Shown here piece by piece: positions 6,565 through 13,955 of a DNA stretch of 53,405 bases; the stretch's first letter is position 1; each line of letters starts with the position of its first letter. The notes beneath the pieces were generated by a model. It worked only from the letters and a program-made list of their open reading frames with translations. It searched no databases and was not told where the DNA came from. Both the position numbers and the translations under genes were made by a program. Origin of the DNA: Azovibrio restrictus (GTDB lineage: Bacteria; Bacteroidota; Bacteroidia; Chitinophagales; Chitinophagaceae); assembly GCA_029255605.1 (NCBI GenBank), contig JANLJF010000060.1:1-53405 (forward strand). Reading direction: 5' to 3'.

Positions 6565-7467
6565 CTACAAACGGTCTTTGAGCATAATGATGGCGAAACA
6601 AATAATCATACACGCAGCAGATATTTTGTTCATAAGCATGGCGTACTTATAACGTGCTTCGGCAGGGTCTTTCAGGATGCGGGAAAACCACCAGTTAAAA
6701 TAAATGATGAGCGGCGACAGGCAGGCAACGAAAATAAAGAAATCGGTCAGCGTGCGCCAGGTGGTGAAGTAGTGATAACAAACGATGGCCGTTAGCGCGA
6801 AGAAGATACCCGAGAAAATGAAGGTACCCTTTACACCCAGCTTGTAGCTAATGGTATAGTCGCCACGCTCACCATCCTCTTCGTGCTGATATACCTGCGT
6901 GAGTGGATACGAGCCCCCCAGCATCAGCGATGCGATAAGCATACCTTCCAGGTTGGCAGTGGTGAACCAAGACATATCTACCTGCCGCTGTGCTGTCATA
7001 CTACTGAGCATGAAGGTATAACCGCCCTGGAAAAACATGACACTGAGCCATCCCCAAAGCGGGTATTTTTTAAGGCGGATACCATCCCAGCTATACGATT
7101 TTGAAAAGGATATATAGCCTGCAACCAGCAGCACATTTTTCCAACCTGTAAGTGCGCATAGCAGCAGCCCTGCCACATCTACAATAATGCTGGTATAGTA
7201 CATACTGCGCTTTATCGGTGGCGGGTGTTCGAGTCCGCCGATGCTGCCCGTGTCTTTATCCATATAGCTATTATACAGGTTGCTGGCAGGATAGATAAAC
7301 AAATGAAGCACAATGCCTACAATTAAAACATCTATGGCATGAATATTTAAGGATTGACTGATACCGAACCAGAATACGGGGAAGAGGTAGATGGAAAACG
7401 GTATCCGAAGATGCAGGATCGTATCCTTATCGAATAACTGACGGGTGTATGATATAGACTGGTTCAA
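6565..7467 (-). CDS. UbiA-like prenyltransferase
   Basis: A 300-residue polytopic protein with about eight or nine membrane helices. The first aspartate-rich motif is N-LYNSYMDKD (about residues 63-72), a variant of NDxxDxxxD; the second is EEDGERGD near residue 197, matching DxxxxxGD-like motifs of UbiA enzymes, which bind Mg-diphosphate. The family attaches prenyl chains to aromatic acceptors in the membrane. The start is a TTG at 7467: upstream in frame there is no ATG before a stop, and no internal ATG precedes the first motif. It is divergent from the type III polyketide synthase, whose GTG/ATG start lies 2-26 bases away, suggesting that the prenyltransferase acts on the polyketide. That link is inference. 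Confidence 0.75.
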   Translation of the reverse strand: MNQSISYTRQLFDKDTILHLRIPFSIYLFPVFWFGISQSLNIHAIDVLIVGIVLHLFIYPASNLYNSYMDKDTGSIGGLEHPPPIKRSMYYTSIIVDVAGLLLCALTGWKNVLLVAGYISFSKSYSWDGIRLKKYPLWGWLSVMFFQGGYTFMLSSMTAQRQVDMSWFTTANLEGMLIASLMLGGSYPLTQVYQHEEDGERGDYTISYKLGVKGTFIFSGIFFALTAIVCYHYFTTWRTLTDFFIFVACLSPLIIYFNWWFSRILKDPAEARYKYAMLMNKISAACMIICFAIIMLKDRL

Positions 7468-7493
7468 AAGTGAAACGCATTTTAAATGATAAG

Positions 7494-8612
7494 ATGATGA
7501 GCCCTACTATACAAGCCATTGGCACTGCGGTACCTGTAAATAAAATATGCCAACAGGACCATTATGATATATTAGAATCGGCAAACGGGCTGAACCGCGC
7601 GGAAAGACTGACACTGCGACAGATATACAGCAAGAGCGGCATTGCATACCGGCATAGTGTGCTGAGTGAATTTGGGGCGGAAGATGCAGCAGAAAATCAA
7701 CTATTTCACCCGTCGGGCAGGTACCCGCAAACGGATATAGCGCAACGCATGCAGATATATGAACAGCATGCCGGCGACCTGTGTGCTGAGGCTTGTCGCG
7801 ATGCCTTTGCACAGCTAGACCTGCTGAAGAAAGAAGAGGTGACGCATGTGGTAACCTTTAGCTGCACGGGCATGCACGCACCGGGGCTGGATATAGAAAT
7901 GACAGAAAAGTTGGGGCTGCCCAGGAATGTAGAGCGTACCTGCATCAATTTTATGGGTTGCTATGCGGCCATCAATGCATTGAAGTATGCCTATCACATT
8001 GTGCGTTCGGAGCCAGACGCTGTGGTATTGCTAGCCGGTGTGGAGCTATGCTCACTGCACTACCAGAAAAGCAATGAAACCAACCAGATGGTAGCCAATG
8101 CCCTGTTTAGCGATGGGGCTGCAGCCGCCGTTGTATCCGCAAAGAAGCTTAGCAGCGATGCGAACCACCTGACCTATGCGTTGAAAAGCTTTTATGCGGA
8201 GTTTGAGCAAAGTGCCAGTAATGAAATGGTGTGGCGCATCGGCAACCTGGGTTTCGACCTGCGGCTGACACCTGAAGTACCGAAAGTGGTGAAAGGCAAC
8301 ATTAACATGCTGGTGCAAAAGCTGCTGCACAAAGCAGGCATCCGGCAGGATGATATAGCTTACTATGCCATACACCCGGGTGGTATCAAGATACTGGAAG
8401 CCTGCGAAACTGCATTAGGCATCAGCAAAGAAGACAACAAAGTTTCTTATAGCGTGTTGAATGACTTTGGTAATATGTCATCGGTGACAGTGCTGTTTGT
8501 GCTGAAGCGTTATCTACAACAACTGACGAAAGCAGATAAAGGGAAGAAAGTATTATCGTGTGCTTTTGGGCCGGGCATTACCGTAGAATCTTTAATAGCT
8601 GAAATAGCATAA
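7494..8612 (+). CDS. Type III polyketide synthase (chalcone/stilbene synthase family)
   Basis: Catalytic triad visible with the right spacing: Cys156 (FMGCYAA), His294 (AIHPGG) and Asn327 (FGNMSS), against 164/303/336 in plant chalcone synthase. The C-terminal FGPG loop (CAFGPGITVESL) is present. The ATG pair at 7494/7497 fits the family start (SPTIQAIGTAVP); an in-frame GTG at 7470 would add eight residues. The enzyme condenses malonyl-CoA units onto a starter and cyclises them to pyrones, resorcinols or phloroglucinol-type products; I cannot tell which. Its stop is 2 bases before the methyltransferase ATG, so the three plus-strand genes look like one operon with the divergent UbiA gene as partner. 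Confidence 0.92.
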   Translation: MMSPTIQAIGTAVPVNKICQQDHYDILESANGLNRAERLTLRQIYSKSGIAYRHSVLSEFGAEDAAENQLFHPSGRYPQTDIAQRMQIYEQHAGDLCAEACRDAFAQLDLLKKEEVTHVVTFSCTGMHAPGLDIEMTEKLGLPRNVERTCINFMGCYAAINALKYAYHIVRSEPDAVVLLAGVELCSLHYQKSNETNQMVANALFSDGAAAAVVSAKKLSSDANHLTYALKSFYAEFEQSASNEMVWRIGNLGFDLRLTPEVPKVVKGNINMLVQKLLHKAGIRQDDIAYYAIHPGGIKILEACETALGISKEDNKVSYSVLNDFGNMSSVTVLFVLKRYLQQLTKADKGKKVLSCAFGPGITVESLIAEIA

Positions 8613-8614
8613 CT

Positions 8615-9316
8615 ATGCCCGACCTGAGCGTACGCAGCCACGAAGCAGAGATAATGGACGACCTGGCATCGCCCGAAAATGAACTGCGGCAGAACCTGCG
8701 CGAGTTGGAGGTAATTAATAAACTACTGGGTGGCTATAGTGTGGTATTGAATGCACTGGATAAACTGGACCTACCGAAAGACAAACCCACCAGTATAATA
8801 GACATAGGCAGCGGCGGCGGCGATATGCTGCGCGAGATAGCAGGGTGGGCACAGCAACGCAAAAAGGAAGTGGTACTAACAGGTATAGACTATAACCGTG
8901 TAATGATACATTATGCCATGGAGCATTCCGCAGACTATGACAACATCAGCTATAAGCAGATGAGCGTGTGGGATGAACAGATGTGGCAGGAACGTGCAGA
9001 TGTGGTGCTGTGCAATTTATTTTGCCACCACTTTACAGATGCAGAACTGGTGCCGTTGCTGCGGATGTTTTATAACATTAGTAATAAAGCCGTTATTATC
9101 AACGACCTGCACCGGCATTGGTTTGCCTATCATGCTATTGCTGTGCTTACATCACTGTTCTCTAAAACCTACATGGTGAAGCATGATGCGAAGCTATCTG
9201 TAGCACGGGCATTTACACGAAAGGAACTGGAACTGCTACTGCATGATGCAGGCATCACTAACTATACTATAAAATGGCGGTGGGCTTGGCGGTGGGAAGT
9301 CATTATAAAGAAGTAA
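8615..9316 (+). CDS. SAM-dependent class I methyltransferase
   Basis: Rossmann-type methyltransferase of 233 residues. Motif I is IIDIGSGGGDML (residues 61-72), and motif II-like GIDYN follows about 24 residues later; VVLCNLFCHHF corresponds to motif IV. It sits between the polyketide synthase (2-base gap) and the FAD oxidoreductase (7-base gap), so O- or C-methylation of the polyketide ring is the natural guess, as UbiE/COQ5-like enzymes do in quinone pathways. A long hydrophobic stretch near residues 165-185 could dock to membrane or lipid substrate. Family firm; substrate inferred. Confidence 0.88.
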   Translation: MPDLSVRSHEAEIMDDLASPENELRQNLRELEVINKLLGGYSVVLNALDKLDLPKDKPTSIIDIGSGGGDMLREIAGWAQQRKKEVVLTGIDYNRVMIHYAMEHSADYDNISYKQMSVWDEQMWQERADVVLCNLFCHHFTDAELVPLLRMFYNISNKAVIINDLHRHWFAYHAIAVLTSLFSKTYMVKHDAKLSVARAFTRKELELLLHDAGITNYTIKWRWAWRWEVIIKK

Positions 9317-9323
9317 CAACACG

Positions 9324-10463
9324 ATGCATACAGACTACGACGTTATCATAGCAGGTGGTGGATTGGCAGGCTTAGTTTCTGCCATAGAGCTATCGGCTGC
9401 GGGTAGTCATGTATTGCTGCTGGAAAAGAAAACATATCCTTATCATAAAGTATGCGGCGAATACATCAGCAATGAAGTGCTGGGATATCTGCAATCGCTG
9501 GGGTTTGACCCGTTTGCACTGAGGGCATCACGCATTAGCAAGCTGCGCATCTCTACACCGCAGGGAAAGAACATACATACAAAATTAGACCTGGGTGGCT
9601 TTGGCATCAGCAGGTACACGACGGACCACGCCTTATCGCTACTGGCCATAAAGAATGGTGCAGAGGTATTGACTGATACTAAAGTAAATGACATGCGATT
9701 TACCGACGATGTATTTACCGTAGATGCCGGTGCGAAAAGCTATACCTCCAAACTGGTGATAGGCAGCTATGGCAAGCGCGAGATGCTGGATAAGAAACTG
9801 AACCGTGCCTTTATGCAGCAGCATACAGGCTACACAGCCGTGAAATATCATGTGCGGCTGGACTACCCGAAAGATGAAATAGGGCTGGACAATTTTGCCG
9901 ATGGGTATTGCGGTATATCGAGGATAGAAGATGATAAGTATTGCATGTGCTACCTGTACAGGCGCGGTAAAAACTATCATTATAAATCGATACCCGAATT
10001 TGAAGCGGCGGTTCTGCATAAGAACCCGGTGCTGAAAAAGCATTTCTCTATTGCAGAACAGTTATACGATGCGCCACTGGCTATCAATGAAATTAACTTC
10101 TCGCCCAAGACACTGATACAAGACCATATACTGATGTGTGGTGATACGGCAGGATTGATAACACCCCTATGCGGCAATGGCATGTCGATGGCGATAGCGG
10201 GAGCGAAGATGCTGACGGCGCTTATCAAGCAAAGTAAATTATTAGACAAAGAAGCGATACCGTTGCAAGACAGGCTACAACTGGAGCATGCCTACCAGCA
10301 GCAATGGGACAAAGCCTTTAAGCAGCGACTGGCATGGGGACGGGCTATACAAAACTGGTTTGGCAACCCTACCCTTACGGGCATCTTCCTGCGCACTGTA
10401 CACAGCATACCACCACTGGAAAAGAAACTGATACGCGCTACACATGGCAGCCCATTGGTGTAA
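9324..10463 (+). CDS. FAD-dependent oxidoreductase (geranylgeranyl reductase-like)
   Basis: The FAD-binding motif GGGLAG is at residues 11-16, with the ribose-binding acid in LLLEKK. KVCGEYIS resembles the CGE/CGG loop of geranylgeranyl reductase and related group A flavin monooxygenases. The second FAD motif, MCGDTAGLITPLCGNGM, lies near residue 275. It could hydroxylate the polyketide ring or reduce a prenyl chain; the presence of a UbiA homologue next door makes either credible. The gene ends 2 bases from the convergent GNAT gene and no terminator hairpin is visible there. Confidence 0.85.
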   Translation: MHTDYDVIIAGGGLAGLVSAIELSAAGSHVLLLEKKTYPYHKVCGEYISNEVLGYLQSLGFDPFALRASRISKLRISTPQGKNIHTKLDLGGFGISRYTTDHALSLLAIKNGAEVLTDTKVNDMRFTDDVFTVDAGAKSYTSKLVIGSYGKREMLDKKLNRAFMQQHTGYTAVKYHVRLDYPKDEIGLDNFADGYCGISRIEDDKYCMCYLYRRGKNYHYKSIPEFEAAVLHKNPVLKKHFSIAEQLYDAPLAINEINFSPKTLIQDHILMCGDTAGLITPLCGNGMSMAIAGAKMLTALIKQSKLLDKEAIPLQDRLQLEHAYQQQWDKAFKQRLAWGRAIQNWFGNPTLTGIFLRTVHSIPPLEKKLIRATHGSPLV

Positions 10464-11750: not shown

Positions 11751-13955
11751 ATGGCTATTGTGAGTGCACCTGTATTATTAATAACACCACCGTTTACACA
11801 GCTAAATACGCCCTACCCGGCTACGGCTTACCTGAAGGGCTTCCTGAATACGCGGCAGATACCTGCGGTGCAGGCCGATATGGGTATCGAGGTAACGATC
11901 GCTCTGTTCTCGAAAGCAGGGTTGGAAAGGTTGTTTGCGCAGGTAGATACTAGGAAAGAATGGAGTGAGAATGTAAAGCGCATCCTTACGCTGAAAGATG
12001 ATTATATAAACACAGTGGATGCAGTCATCCGTTTTTTGCAGGGGCATACGCCTACCATGGCGCACCTGATATGCAAACGCAACTACCTGCCAGAAGCCAG
12101 CCGCTTTGCGCAGCTGGACGACCTGAACCAGGCATTTGGCAGTATGGGCACACAGGACAAGGCCAAGCACCTGGCCACCATGTACCTGGAAGACCTGAGC
12201 GACCTGATACAGGAATGCGTGGATAGCCATTTTGGTTTCAGCAGGTATGCGGAAAGGTTGGGGCGTTCGGCCAATAGCTTTGATGAACTGTATGCTGCAC
12301 TGCAGGCACCGCTAACGCTGGTAGATAGTCTGCTGATAGAAATACTGCAACAACGTATGCAGGATGTGCAGCCCATGATGGTAGCGCTATCGGTTCCCTT
12401 TCCGGGAAACCTATATGCAGCCTTCCGCTGTGCGCAGTGGATAAAACAGCACTATCCCAATGTAAAGTTGGTGATGGGTGGCGGCTTCCCGAATACAGAG
12501 TTGCGTTCTTTATCGGATGCGCGGGTGTTTGAATTCTTCGATTTTATAACGCTGGATGATGGCGAAGCACCAATTGAAGCACTGGTGCAATACATATATG
12601 GCAGGCGTGCATTGGAAGAACTGAAACGCACCTTCACGCTACAGGATGGCAAGGTGGTATTCTTTGACAATCCATCGTGCAGTGATTATAAACAAGGACA
12701 GGTAGGCACACCTGACTATAGCGATTTTTTGCTGGATAAATATATTTCTGCTATAGAAGTAGTAAACCCCATGCATAGCCTGTGGAGCGATGGCCGCTGG
12801 AACAAGCTGACCATGGCGCATGGCTGCTACTGGGGTAAATGCACCTTCTGCGATATATCGTTGCCTTATATAAAACAGTACGAACCCATCACCGCGCAGC
12901 TACTGTGCGATAGGATGGAAGAAATAATAGCCCAGACAGGCGAAACCGGCTTTCACTTTGTAGATGAGGCTGCACCACCGGCACTGATGCGGGCACTGGC
13001 GCTGGAAATCATTCGCCGGAAGCTGAATGTGAGCTGGTGGACCAATATCCGCTTTGAGAAAAGTTTTACGCGCGACCTGTGTATGCTGCTGAAAGAATCG
13101 GGCTGCATAGCGGTATCGGGGGGGCTGGAAGTAGCATCGGATAGATTGCTGGCTTTGATACAGAAAGGCATTACCGTAGCGCAAGTGGCGAGGGTGAACA
13201 AACACTTTACCGAAGCGGGCATCATGGTGCATGCCTACCTGATGTATGGCTTCCCAACGCAGACGGCGCAGGAAACCATCGATTCGCTGGAGATGGTAAG
13301 GCAGATGTTTGAAGCAGGCATATTGCAGTCGGCCTTCTGGCATCAGTTTGCCATGACTGCACACAGCCCTGTAGGATTGGAACCGGATAAGTATAAAGTG
13401 AAGAAAGAAACAGAAGCCATCGGCAGCTTTGCCAATAATGATATTGTGCATACAGATCCAACCGGTGCCGACCACGATAGCTTTAGCTACGGATTGAAAA
13501 AATCATTGCTGAACTATATGCACGGGGCGTGCTTTGATTATCCGTTGCAAAAATGGTTTGAGTTTAAAGTACCGAAGACCACCGTACCGCCTGACTATAT
13601 TGTAAAAGCATTGGAAGCCGATGAACTGGCAAGTGCCAAGCCTACTGCCAAAGTAGTGTGGCTGGGCAAAAAGCCGGAAGTAGAAACGGTGATAAAATCG
13701 AAAAAGGGGAACCAGTGGGAATTATCTTCCCTTACTTTTCAGAGCAGGCAGGATACACTTAACATTAAAGTAGATAAAGAACAAGGCCTGTGGCTGGCAG
13801 AGATGCTGTCAACTTTATCTGCAAACAATACAAAGAACTACACACTACAAGAAATAAAAGATAGCTACGAAGCAGCGGGGCTGGAAGATTTTGAACTCTT
13901 CTGGGATAATAAACCGGTGAATGGGCTTTATAAATACGGGCTGCTTACTTTATAA
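11751..13955 (+). CDS. B12-binding domain radical SAM protein
   Basis: 734 residues. The N-terminal region (PVLLITPPFTQLNTPYPATAYL, in parts) and the later VKLVMGGGFPNTEL segment fit a cobalamin-binding Rossmann domain, without an obvious DxHxxG motif. The radical SAM cluster motif is GCYWGKCTFC near residues 357-366: CX4CX2C rather than CX3CX2C, as in the CPWxxCxFC subset of B12-radical SAM proteins. HFVDEAAPP and GCIAVSGGLEVASDRLL are typical of the TIM barrel. The C-terminal ~200 residues are extra. Reaction unknown; candidates are methylations or ring rearrangements. It stands alone, with a terminator right after it. Confidence 0.85.
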   Translation: MAIVSAPVLLITPPFTQLNTPYPATAYLKGFLNTRQIPAVQADMGIEVTIALFSKAGLERLFAQVDTRKEWSENVKRILTLKDDYINTVDAVIRFLQGHTPTMAHLICKRNYLPEASRFAQLDDLNQAFGSMGTQDKAKHLATMYLEDLSDLIQECVDSHFGFSRYAERLGRSANSFDELYAALQAPLTLVDSLLIEILQQRMQDVQPMMVALSVPFPGNLYAAFRCAQWIKQHYPNVKLVMGGGFPNTELRSLSDARVFEFFDFITLDDGEAPIEALVQYIYGRRALEELKRTFTLQDGKVVFFDNPSCSDYKQGQVGTPDYSDFLLDKYISAIEVVNPMHSLWSDGRWNKLTMAHGCYWGKCTFCDISLPYIKQYEPITAQLLCDRMEEIIAQTGETGFHFVDEAAPPALMRALALEIIRRKLNVSWWTNIRFEKSFTRDLCMLLKESGCIAVSGGLEVASDRLLALIQKGITVAQVARVNKHFTEAGIMVHAYLMYGFPTQTAQETIDSLEMVRQMFEAGILQSAFWHQFAMTAHSPVGLEPDKYKVKKETEAIGSFANNDIVHTDPTGADHDSFSYGLKKSLLNYMHGACFDYPLQKWFEFKVPKTTVPPDYIVKALEADELASAKPTAKVVWLGKKPEVETVIKSKKGNQWELSSLTFQSRQDTLNIKVDKEQGLWLAEMLSTLSANNTKNYTLQEIKDSYEAAGLEDFELFWDNKPVNGLYKYGLLTL

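Follow-up and report, generated by a model that had tools for sequence, protein, structure and literature searches.

The window analysed here is a stretch of contig JANLJF010000060.1 (GenBank assembly GCA_029255605.1; positions 1 to 53,405 of the forward strand, 53,405 nucleotides), labelled Azovibrio restrictus and placed by GTDB in the Chitinophagaceae (Bacteroidota; Bacteroidia; Chitinophagales). At positions 6565-10463 it carries four intact genes, encoding a UbiA-type prenyltransferase, a type III polyketide synthase (PKS), a methyltransferase (MT) dependent on S-adenosylmethionine (SAM) and an oxidoreductase dependent on flavin adenine dinucleotide (FAD). An initial annotation had described these families as a plus-strand PKS-MT-FAD operon with intergenic gaps of 2 and 7 bases and a divergent UbiA gene on the minus strand, and analysis of open reading frames (ORFs) together with Pfam profiles confirmed both the families and their arrangement:

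6565..7467, minus strand: UbiA-superfamily membrane prenyltransferase, 300 amino acids, of a subfamily with NSYxDxD and QHxED motifs (PF01040, predicted fold and motifs; TTG start)
7497..8612, plus strand: type III PKS, 371 amino acids (Chal_sti_synt domains; best solved relative PKS18, 1ted)
8615..9316, plus strand: class I SAM-dependent MT, 233 amino acids (Pfam Methyltransf_31/25; NCBIfam PRK06202 below cut-off)
9324..10463, plus strand: FAD-dependent oxidoreductase, 379 amino acids, of a geranylgeranyl-reductase/halogenase-like branch (FAD_binding_3 and predicted fold)

The PKS ORF had initially been drawn at 7470-8612 from a GTG codon at 7470. Translation probably begins at the ATG at 7497, since homologues align from 'MSPTIQAIG' and not from the GTG. 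UbiA can start only from the TTG at 7467, which leaves about 30 bases between the two divergent genes. A scan of the locus for promoters and terminators gave a signal no higher than in shuffled sequences. Measured against the closest relative (L006, 92-97% amino-acid identity), each of the four genes has a ratio of non-synonymous to synonymous substitution rates (dN/dS) of 0.05-0.08, which indicates that all four are maintained.

The same set of genes recurs well beyond this genome. A scan of GTDB species genomes for the PKS returned 80 loci, nearly all from Bacteroidota, and 62 of these were well covered, with at least 4 kb on either side of the PKS. The comparison of all four genes that the initial annotation had called for could thus be made on this set: besides the PKS, UbiA is present in 48/62 loci, the MT in 56/62 and the FAD gene in 54/62, and all three occur together in 44/62. 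The commonest layout, seen in 30 loci, is that of the window, with UbiA divergent from PKS-MT-FAD, while 22 loci follow a Mucilaginibacter-type order of UbiA and then YceI-PKS-FAD-MT. The YceI-domain gene (PF04264) stands first in the PKS operon, between UbiA and the PKS, in about 26 Mucilaginibacter-type loci (e.g. L017 and L020). Since the YceI family includes polyisoprenoid-binding proteins, its position at the head of the operon fits an isoprenoid or lipid product. The genome of the window has five YceI genes, none of them within the window itself. The four-gene arrangement, recurring jointly across the Bacteroidota, is not a product of chance.

Co-occurrence was also assessed at the level of whole genomes. 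A profile of this UbiA subfamily, run against a phylum sample of 395 genomes, found 26 members with strong scores of 286-454 bits. Another 34 scored only 112-151 bits and all belong to one distant family, f24; the latter were left out of the subfamily because they score far lower and never lie beside the PKS. The 26 genomes with a strong UbiA are the same 26 that top the PKS list (at least 419 bits), against 0/369 of the others. A Fisher test on this division gives 3e-41, a value that is illustrative only, given the relatedness of the genomes and a threshold chosen once the data had been seen. The initial annotation would have taken a UbiA homologue just as common without PKS neighbours as a refutation of its reading; a PKS is present in the genome for 26/26 subfamily members, and the two genes are adjacent in 20/26. 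Within the family to which the window belongs, the two genes are both present in seven genomes and both absent from seven, with two species from a single genus among these, which suggests that UbiA and PKS are gained and lost jointly. Conservation and the complete UbiA-PKS co-occurrence together lend good support to the joint pathway that the initial annotation had envisaged, leading to a prenylated, methylated and oxidised aromatic polyketide.

Membership of the prenyltransferase in the UbiA superfamily rests on its profile and modelled fold. PF01040 matches it at 53.5 bits (cut-off 34.2), and its AlphaFold model, with a mean predicted local distance difference test score (pLDDT) of 94.7, is most similar to archaeal UbiA homologues, with the Archaeoglobus fulgidus structure 4tq4 on top (Z 23.6, 3.5 A over 273 residues). 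Searches of solved-structure sequences with the protein or its profile gave no match, nor did tblastn of the protein against plasmids. In place of the canonical NxxxDxxxD and DxxxD motifs, the protein has NSYMDKDTG and QHEED. Across 22 UbiA-subfamily sequences N66, S67, D70, D72, Q194 and D198 are invariant and E197 nearly so, and the remaining acidic residues would presumably be enough to bind a metal-diphosphate.

The conventional explanation for such a gene is that it serves menaquinone, heme or carotenoid synthesis and that its neighbourhood is incidental. Superfamily membership is compatible with this, but the genome provides for the heme and menaquinone roles elsewhere. It contains four other PF01040 matches: a heme O synthase (TIGR01473, 264.8 bits, cut-off 210.3) adjoining genes that resemble cytochrome oxidase subunits, an MqnP/ubiA_other-type gene (268.2 bits, cut-off 180.8) that is the candidate menaquinone enzyme, a DGGGP-synthase-like gene and one that is unnamed. 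Against NCBIfam, the window's UbiA gave only weak matches, far short of the cut-offs, to the models PRK12884, PRK13595 and BchG/ChlG. It passed the cut-off neither of the MenA/MqnP and heme O synthase models nor of any other family just named; the orthology to a menaquinone or heme enzyme that the initial annotation would have taken as a refutation was not found. As for carotenoids, one distant relative of UbiA lies a few kb from a lycopene-cyclase-like ORF, and a CrtI-like ORF stands just upstream of the operon in two Mucilaginibacter loci that lack UbiA (L036 and L041), both judged by eye. At ten unlinked UbiA loci in Bacteroidia, by contrast, no evident carotenoid gene was seen beside UbiA when the ORFs were read by eye, and we rejected a carotenoid role for these genes, although the distant relatives of family f24 may differ. 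With the conventional explanation largely refuted in this way, we regard it as very improbable.

The PKS is recognized by the Chal_sti_synt_N and Chal_sti_synt_C domains (90.5 and 89.4 bits). PKS18, which accepts long chains (1ted; E 1.2e-50, 32% identity), and the fungal PKS of entry 4b0n are its closest counterparts of solved structure. The catalytic triad, correctly read as intact in the initial annotation, consists of C164, H302 and N335, which align to C175, H313 and N346 of PKS18 and are invariant in 24 aligned sequences. The GFGPG-type loop is present as AFGPG, and by comparison with PKS18 the residues T144, A148 and C205, which line the acyl tunnel, are conserved.

The MT has class I methyltransferase domains, and its best NCBIfam model, PRK06202, matches at 160.7 bits (cut-off 243). 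In Roseomonas, Deinococcus and Psychrobacter, a relative of it likewise has a type III PKS gene as its neighbour. The same holds for a split relative in Microbacterium; on that Microbacterium plasmid (L097) the PKS match is also in two pieces and the MT is divided over two annotated ORFs, so that the set may be frameshifted.

The FAD protein (FAD_binding_3, 40.9 bits) comes closest by sequence to the geranylgeranyl-reductase superfamily model, though below its cut-off, and by profile to flavin halogenases. Its AlphaFold model (pLDDT 89.4) finds its best folds in the halogenases PltA and ChlB4 (Z about 38), followed at Z about 34-35 by squalene epoxidase and several aromatic hydroxylases. Most likely it is a ring hydroxylase or monooxygenase, because the same type of FAD protein accompanies PKS and MT at Roseomonas and Legionella-type loci that lack this UbiA, the search in Roseomonas having covered the plasmid only. 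Reduction of the prenyl chain, a role raised by a match to the geranylgeranyl reductase model TIGR02032 (103.7 bits, cut-off 158.8), is disfavored both by this association and by the higher rank of the halogenase and aromatic hydroxylase folds. In Deinococcus and in the Balneola-like family f24, where loci L104, L106 and L109 carry a related PKS-MT-FAD operon, a different, UbiH/PRK08244-like flavoprotein occupies the same operon position. The gene preceding the PKS in L104 and L109 resembles a MATE-type exporter.

On balance, we consider it somewhat probable that the locus directs biosynthesis of a phenolic lipid of the alkylresorcinol/alkylquinone type that carries a prenyl tail. From the gene families, their intactness, conservation and co-occurrence, which are directly established, we infer the reactions, the chain lengths, the order of the steps and the action of UbiA on this polyketide as follows. 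The PKS would extend a long-chain acyl starter with malonyl-CoA to give an alkylresorcinol (or alkylpyrone). The MT might then methylate the ring, at oxygen or carbon, after which the FAD enzyme could hydroxylate it to yield a hydroquinone or quinone. Finally, the divergently encoded UbiA would add an isoprenoid tail from the cellular prenyl diphosphate pool, making the product membrane-bound.

The initial annotation could name no product for this exact set of genes, and here our analysis departs from it, while its joint-pathway core stands. In its kinds of enzyme, agqABCD of Actinoplanes missouriensis is a direct precedent which, as described in papers citing the original work, produces alkyl-O-dihydrogeranyl-methoxyhydroquinones: AgqA makes an alkylresorcinol, which subsequently receives a prenyl group on oxygen from the prenyltransferase and is hydroxylated (PMC10896814, PMC4044012, PMC7692728). 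Going by these descriptions, and comparing enzymes by kind, both clusters combine a type III PKS, a methyltransferase, an oxidizing enzyme and a membrane (UbiA-like) prenyltransferase. The agq system belongs to another phylum, however, and differs from the window and its relatives in several respects: the window's UbiA is divergent rather than part of the operon and has altered Asp motifs, its flavoprotein belongs to the geranylgeranyl-reductase/halogenase-like branch, and in the roughly 26 Mucilaginibacter-type loci YceI heads the operon. The agq product was reportedly characterized by Awakawa et al. in 2011.

The PKS-MT-FAD part alone corresponds to the hierridin-type or alkylresorcinol operon as described in the literature. 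Like the hidABC genes for hierridins in picocyanobacteria and the planctomycetal mtr-fdo-t3pks genes, it unites an MT, an FAD oxidoreductase and a type III PKS within a single small operon; in those systems the PKS makes alkylresorcinols. The PKS comes first in the window, whereas MT or PKS comes first in those operons; hidABC occurs as hidA-hidB-hidC or, more rarely, as hidC-hidA-hidB, and PKS-MT-FAD matches the rarer order. These operons have no prenyltransferase, except for a single cyanobacterial case in Raphidiopsis. The srsABC genes of Streptomyces griseus and FtpA of Myxococcus xanthus are also comparable with the proposed pathway in that an alkylresorcinol is oxidized to an alkylquinone after the type III PKS has acted, but there, too, a prenyltransferase is absent. 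The order of srsABC is PKS-MT-oxidase, and SrsB is an isoprenylcysteine-methyltransferase-like membrane protein, unlike the soluble class I enzyme of the window. Among the planctomycetal three-gene operons, type III PKSs that were tested produced resorcinols with pentadecyl and heptadecyl chains. The combined action of the MT and FAD genes from Gimesia introduced a single methyl group, probably on carbon (PMC10896814).

Several observations weigh against a prenylated long-chain product. Within UbiA, Gly stands in for the Asp expected at +8 of the first motif (Asp is found at +4 and +6) and Gln for the leading Asp of the second, which makes transferase activity less certain. UbiA is unlinked to the PKS in 6/26 genomes (G146, G190, G387, G072, G166 and G158). 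Among genomes whose PKS cluster has no adjacent UbiA, 10/18 carry the same subfamily elsewhere; no subfamily UbiA was found in the genomes of four Mucilaginibacter (L036, L037, L041 and L054) and one Taibaiella metagenome-assembled genome (MAG), all of which retain the operon, or in those of three Gammaproteobacteria with the operon, including a Legionella-type MAG. Since the operon is kept without UbiA in some genomes, prenylation is not obligatory, and UbiA looks like a late, dispensable tailoring step. At L037 and L054, an ORF resembling a HAD-type hydrolase lies between FAD and MT. With respect to the starter unit, the best NCBIfam model of the PKS is DpgA, a malonyl-CoA-only enzyme, and a short starter thus stays in consideration even though the match of 169 bits is far below the cut-off of 425.

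The absence of UbiA from some loci bears on the idea that PKS, MT and FAD by themselves make an unprenylated methoxylated alkylresorcinol or alkylquinone (hierridin- or Srs-like), with UbiA using another acceptor and its proximity reflecting shared membrane or regulatory use. The three-gene module without UbiA in other phyla and in the four Mucilaginibacter loci agrees with this, as does the observation that in six Hymenobacter/Rufibacter-type loci (L101, L103, L118, L120, L121 and L130) the unlinked UbiA immediately follows another methyltransferase-like ORF of the same orientation. The shared distribution of UbiA and PKS in the phylum sample, including their frequent adjacency, is nevertheless hard to explain without a functional link, and we see the unprenylated product as possible, though somewhat unlikely. 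The DpgA match, for its part, would suit a PKS whose starter is short or aromatic, and a cluster that yields a small aromatic bearing a prenyl group, or else an alternative isoprenoid quinone, instead of a long-alkyl phenolic lipid, and the combination of a membrane prenyltransferase with a flavin hydroxylase does resemble quinone biosynthesis enzymes. Both the kinship to PKS18 and 4b0n with conserved tunnel residues and the C15-C17 alkylresorcinols made by tested PKSs of the same operon kind (PMC10896814) argue against this, and we find the short-starter explanation quite unlikely.

Beyond the closest relative, the genes flanking the cluster (peptidase, hydrolase, UDG, GNAT and radical SAM) are not shared with it, save for one weak GNAT match, and they were not counted as part of it. 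The flanking radical SAM protein (11751-13955, plus strand) is of the B12-binding type and is not common to related loci; its nearest NCBIfam models, all below cut-off, are rSAM_ocin_1, a C-methyltransferase for ribosomally synthesized and post-translationally modified peptides (RiPPs), and the PhpK family.

While the four-enzyme combination already has a characterized precedent, its Bacteroidota version is widespread and involves a UbiA subfamily with altered motifs. Our literature search, to which most subscription journals were inaccessible, found no characterized Bacteroidota member. Speculatively, soil and freshwater Bacteroidota might use a Bacteroidota-specific class of prenylated alkylquinone lipids to supplement menaquinone in the membrane, in a redox or a protective function. 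A UbiA subfamily whose metal-binding motif is non-canonical would make these lipids and a YceI-type isoprenoid carrier would serve them, although we hold this extended proposal to be rather unlikely. If the prenylated phenolic lipid reading is correct, many of the soil and freshwater Bacteroidota already in culture (Mucilaginibacter, Pedobacter, Daejeonella, Hymenobacter and Chitinophagales) would make such a lipid, apparently never isolated, and with growable hosts and a set of just four genes the product lends itself to direct testing. The UbiA enzymes would then gain a new subfamily, altered in its metal-binding motifs, and species that have the prenyltransferase (e.g. Mucilaginibacter gossypii) could be set against those that lack it (e.g. 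Mucilaginibacter lacusdianchii) as a natural comparison.

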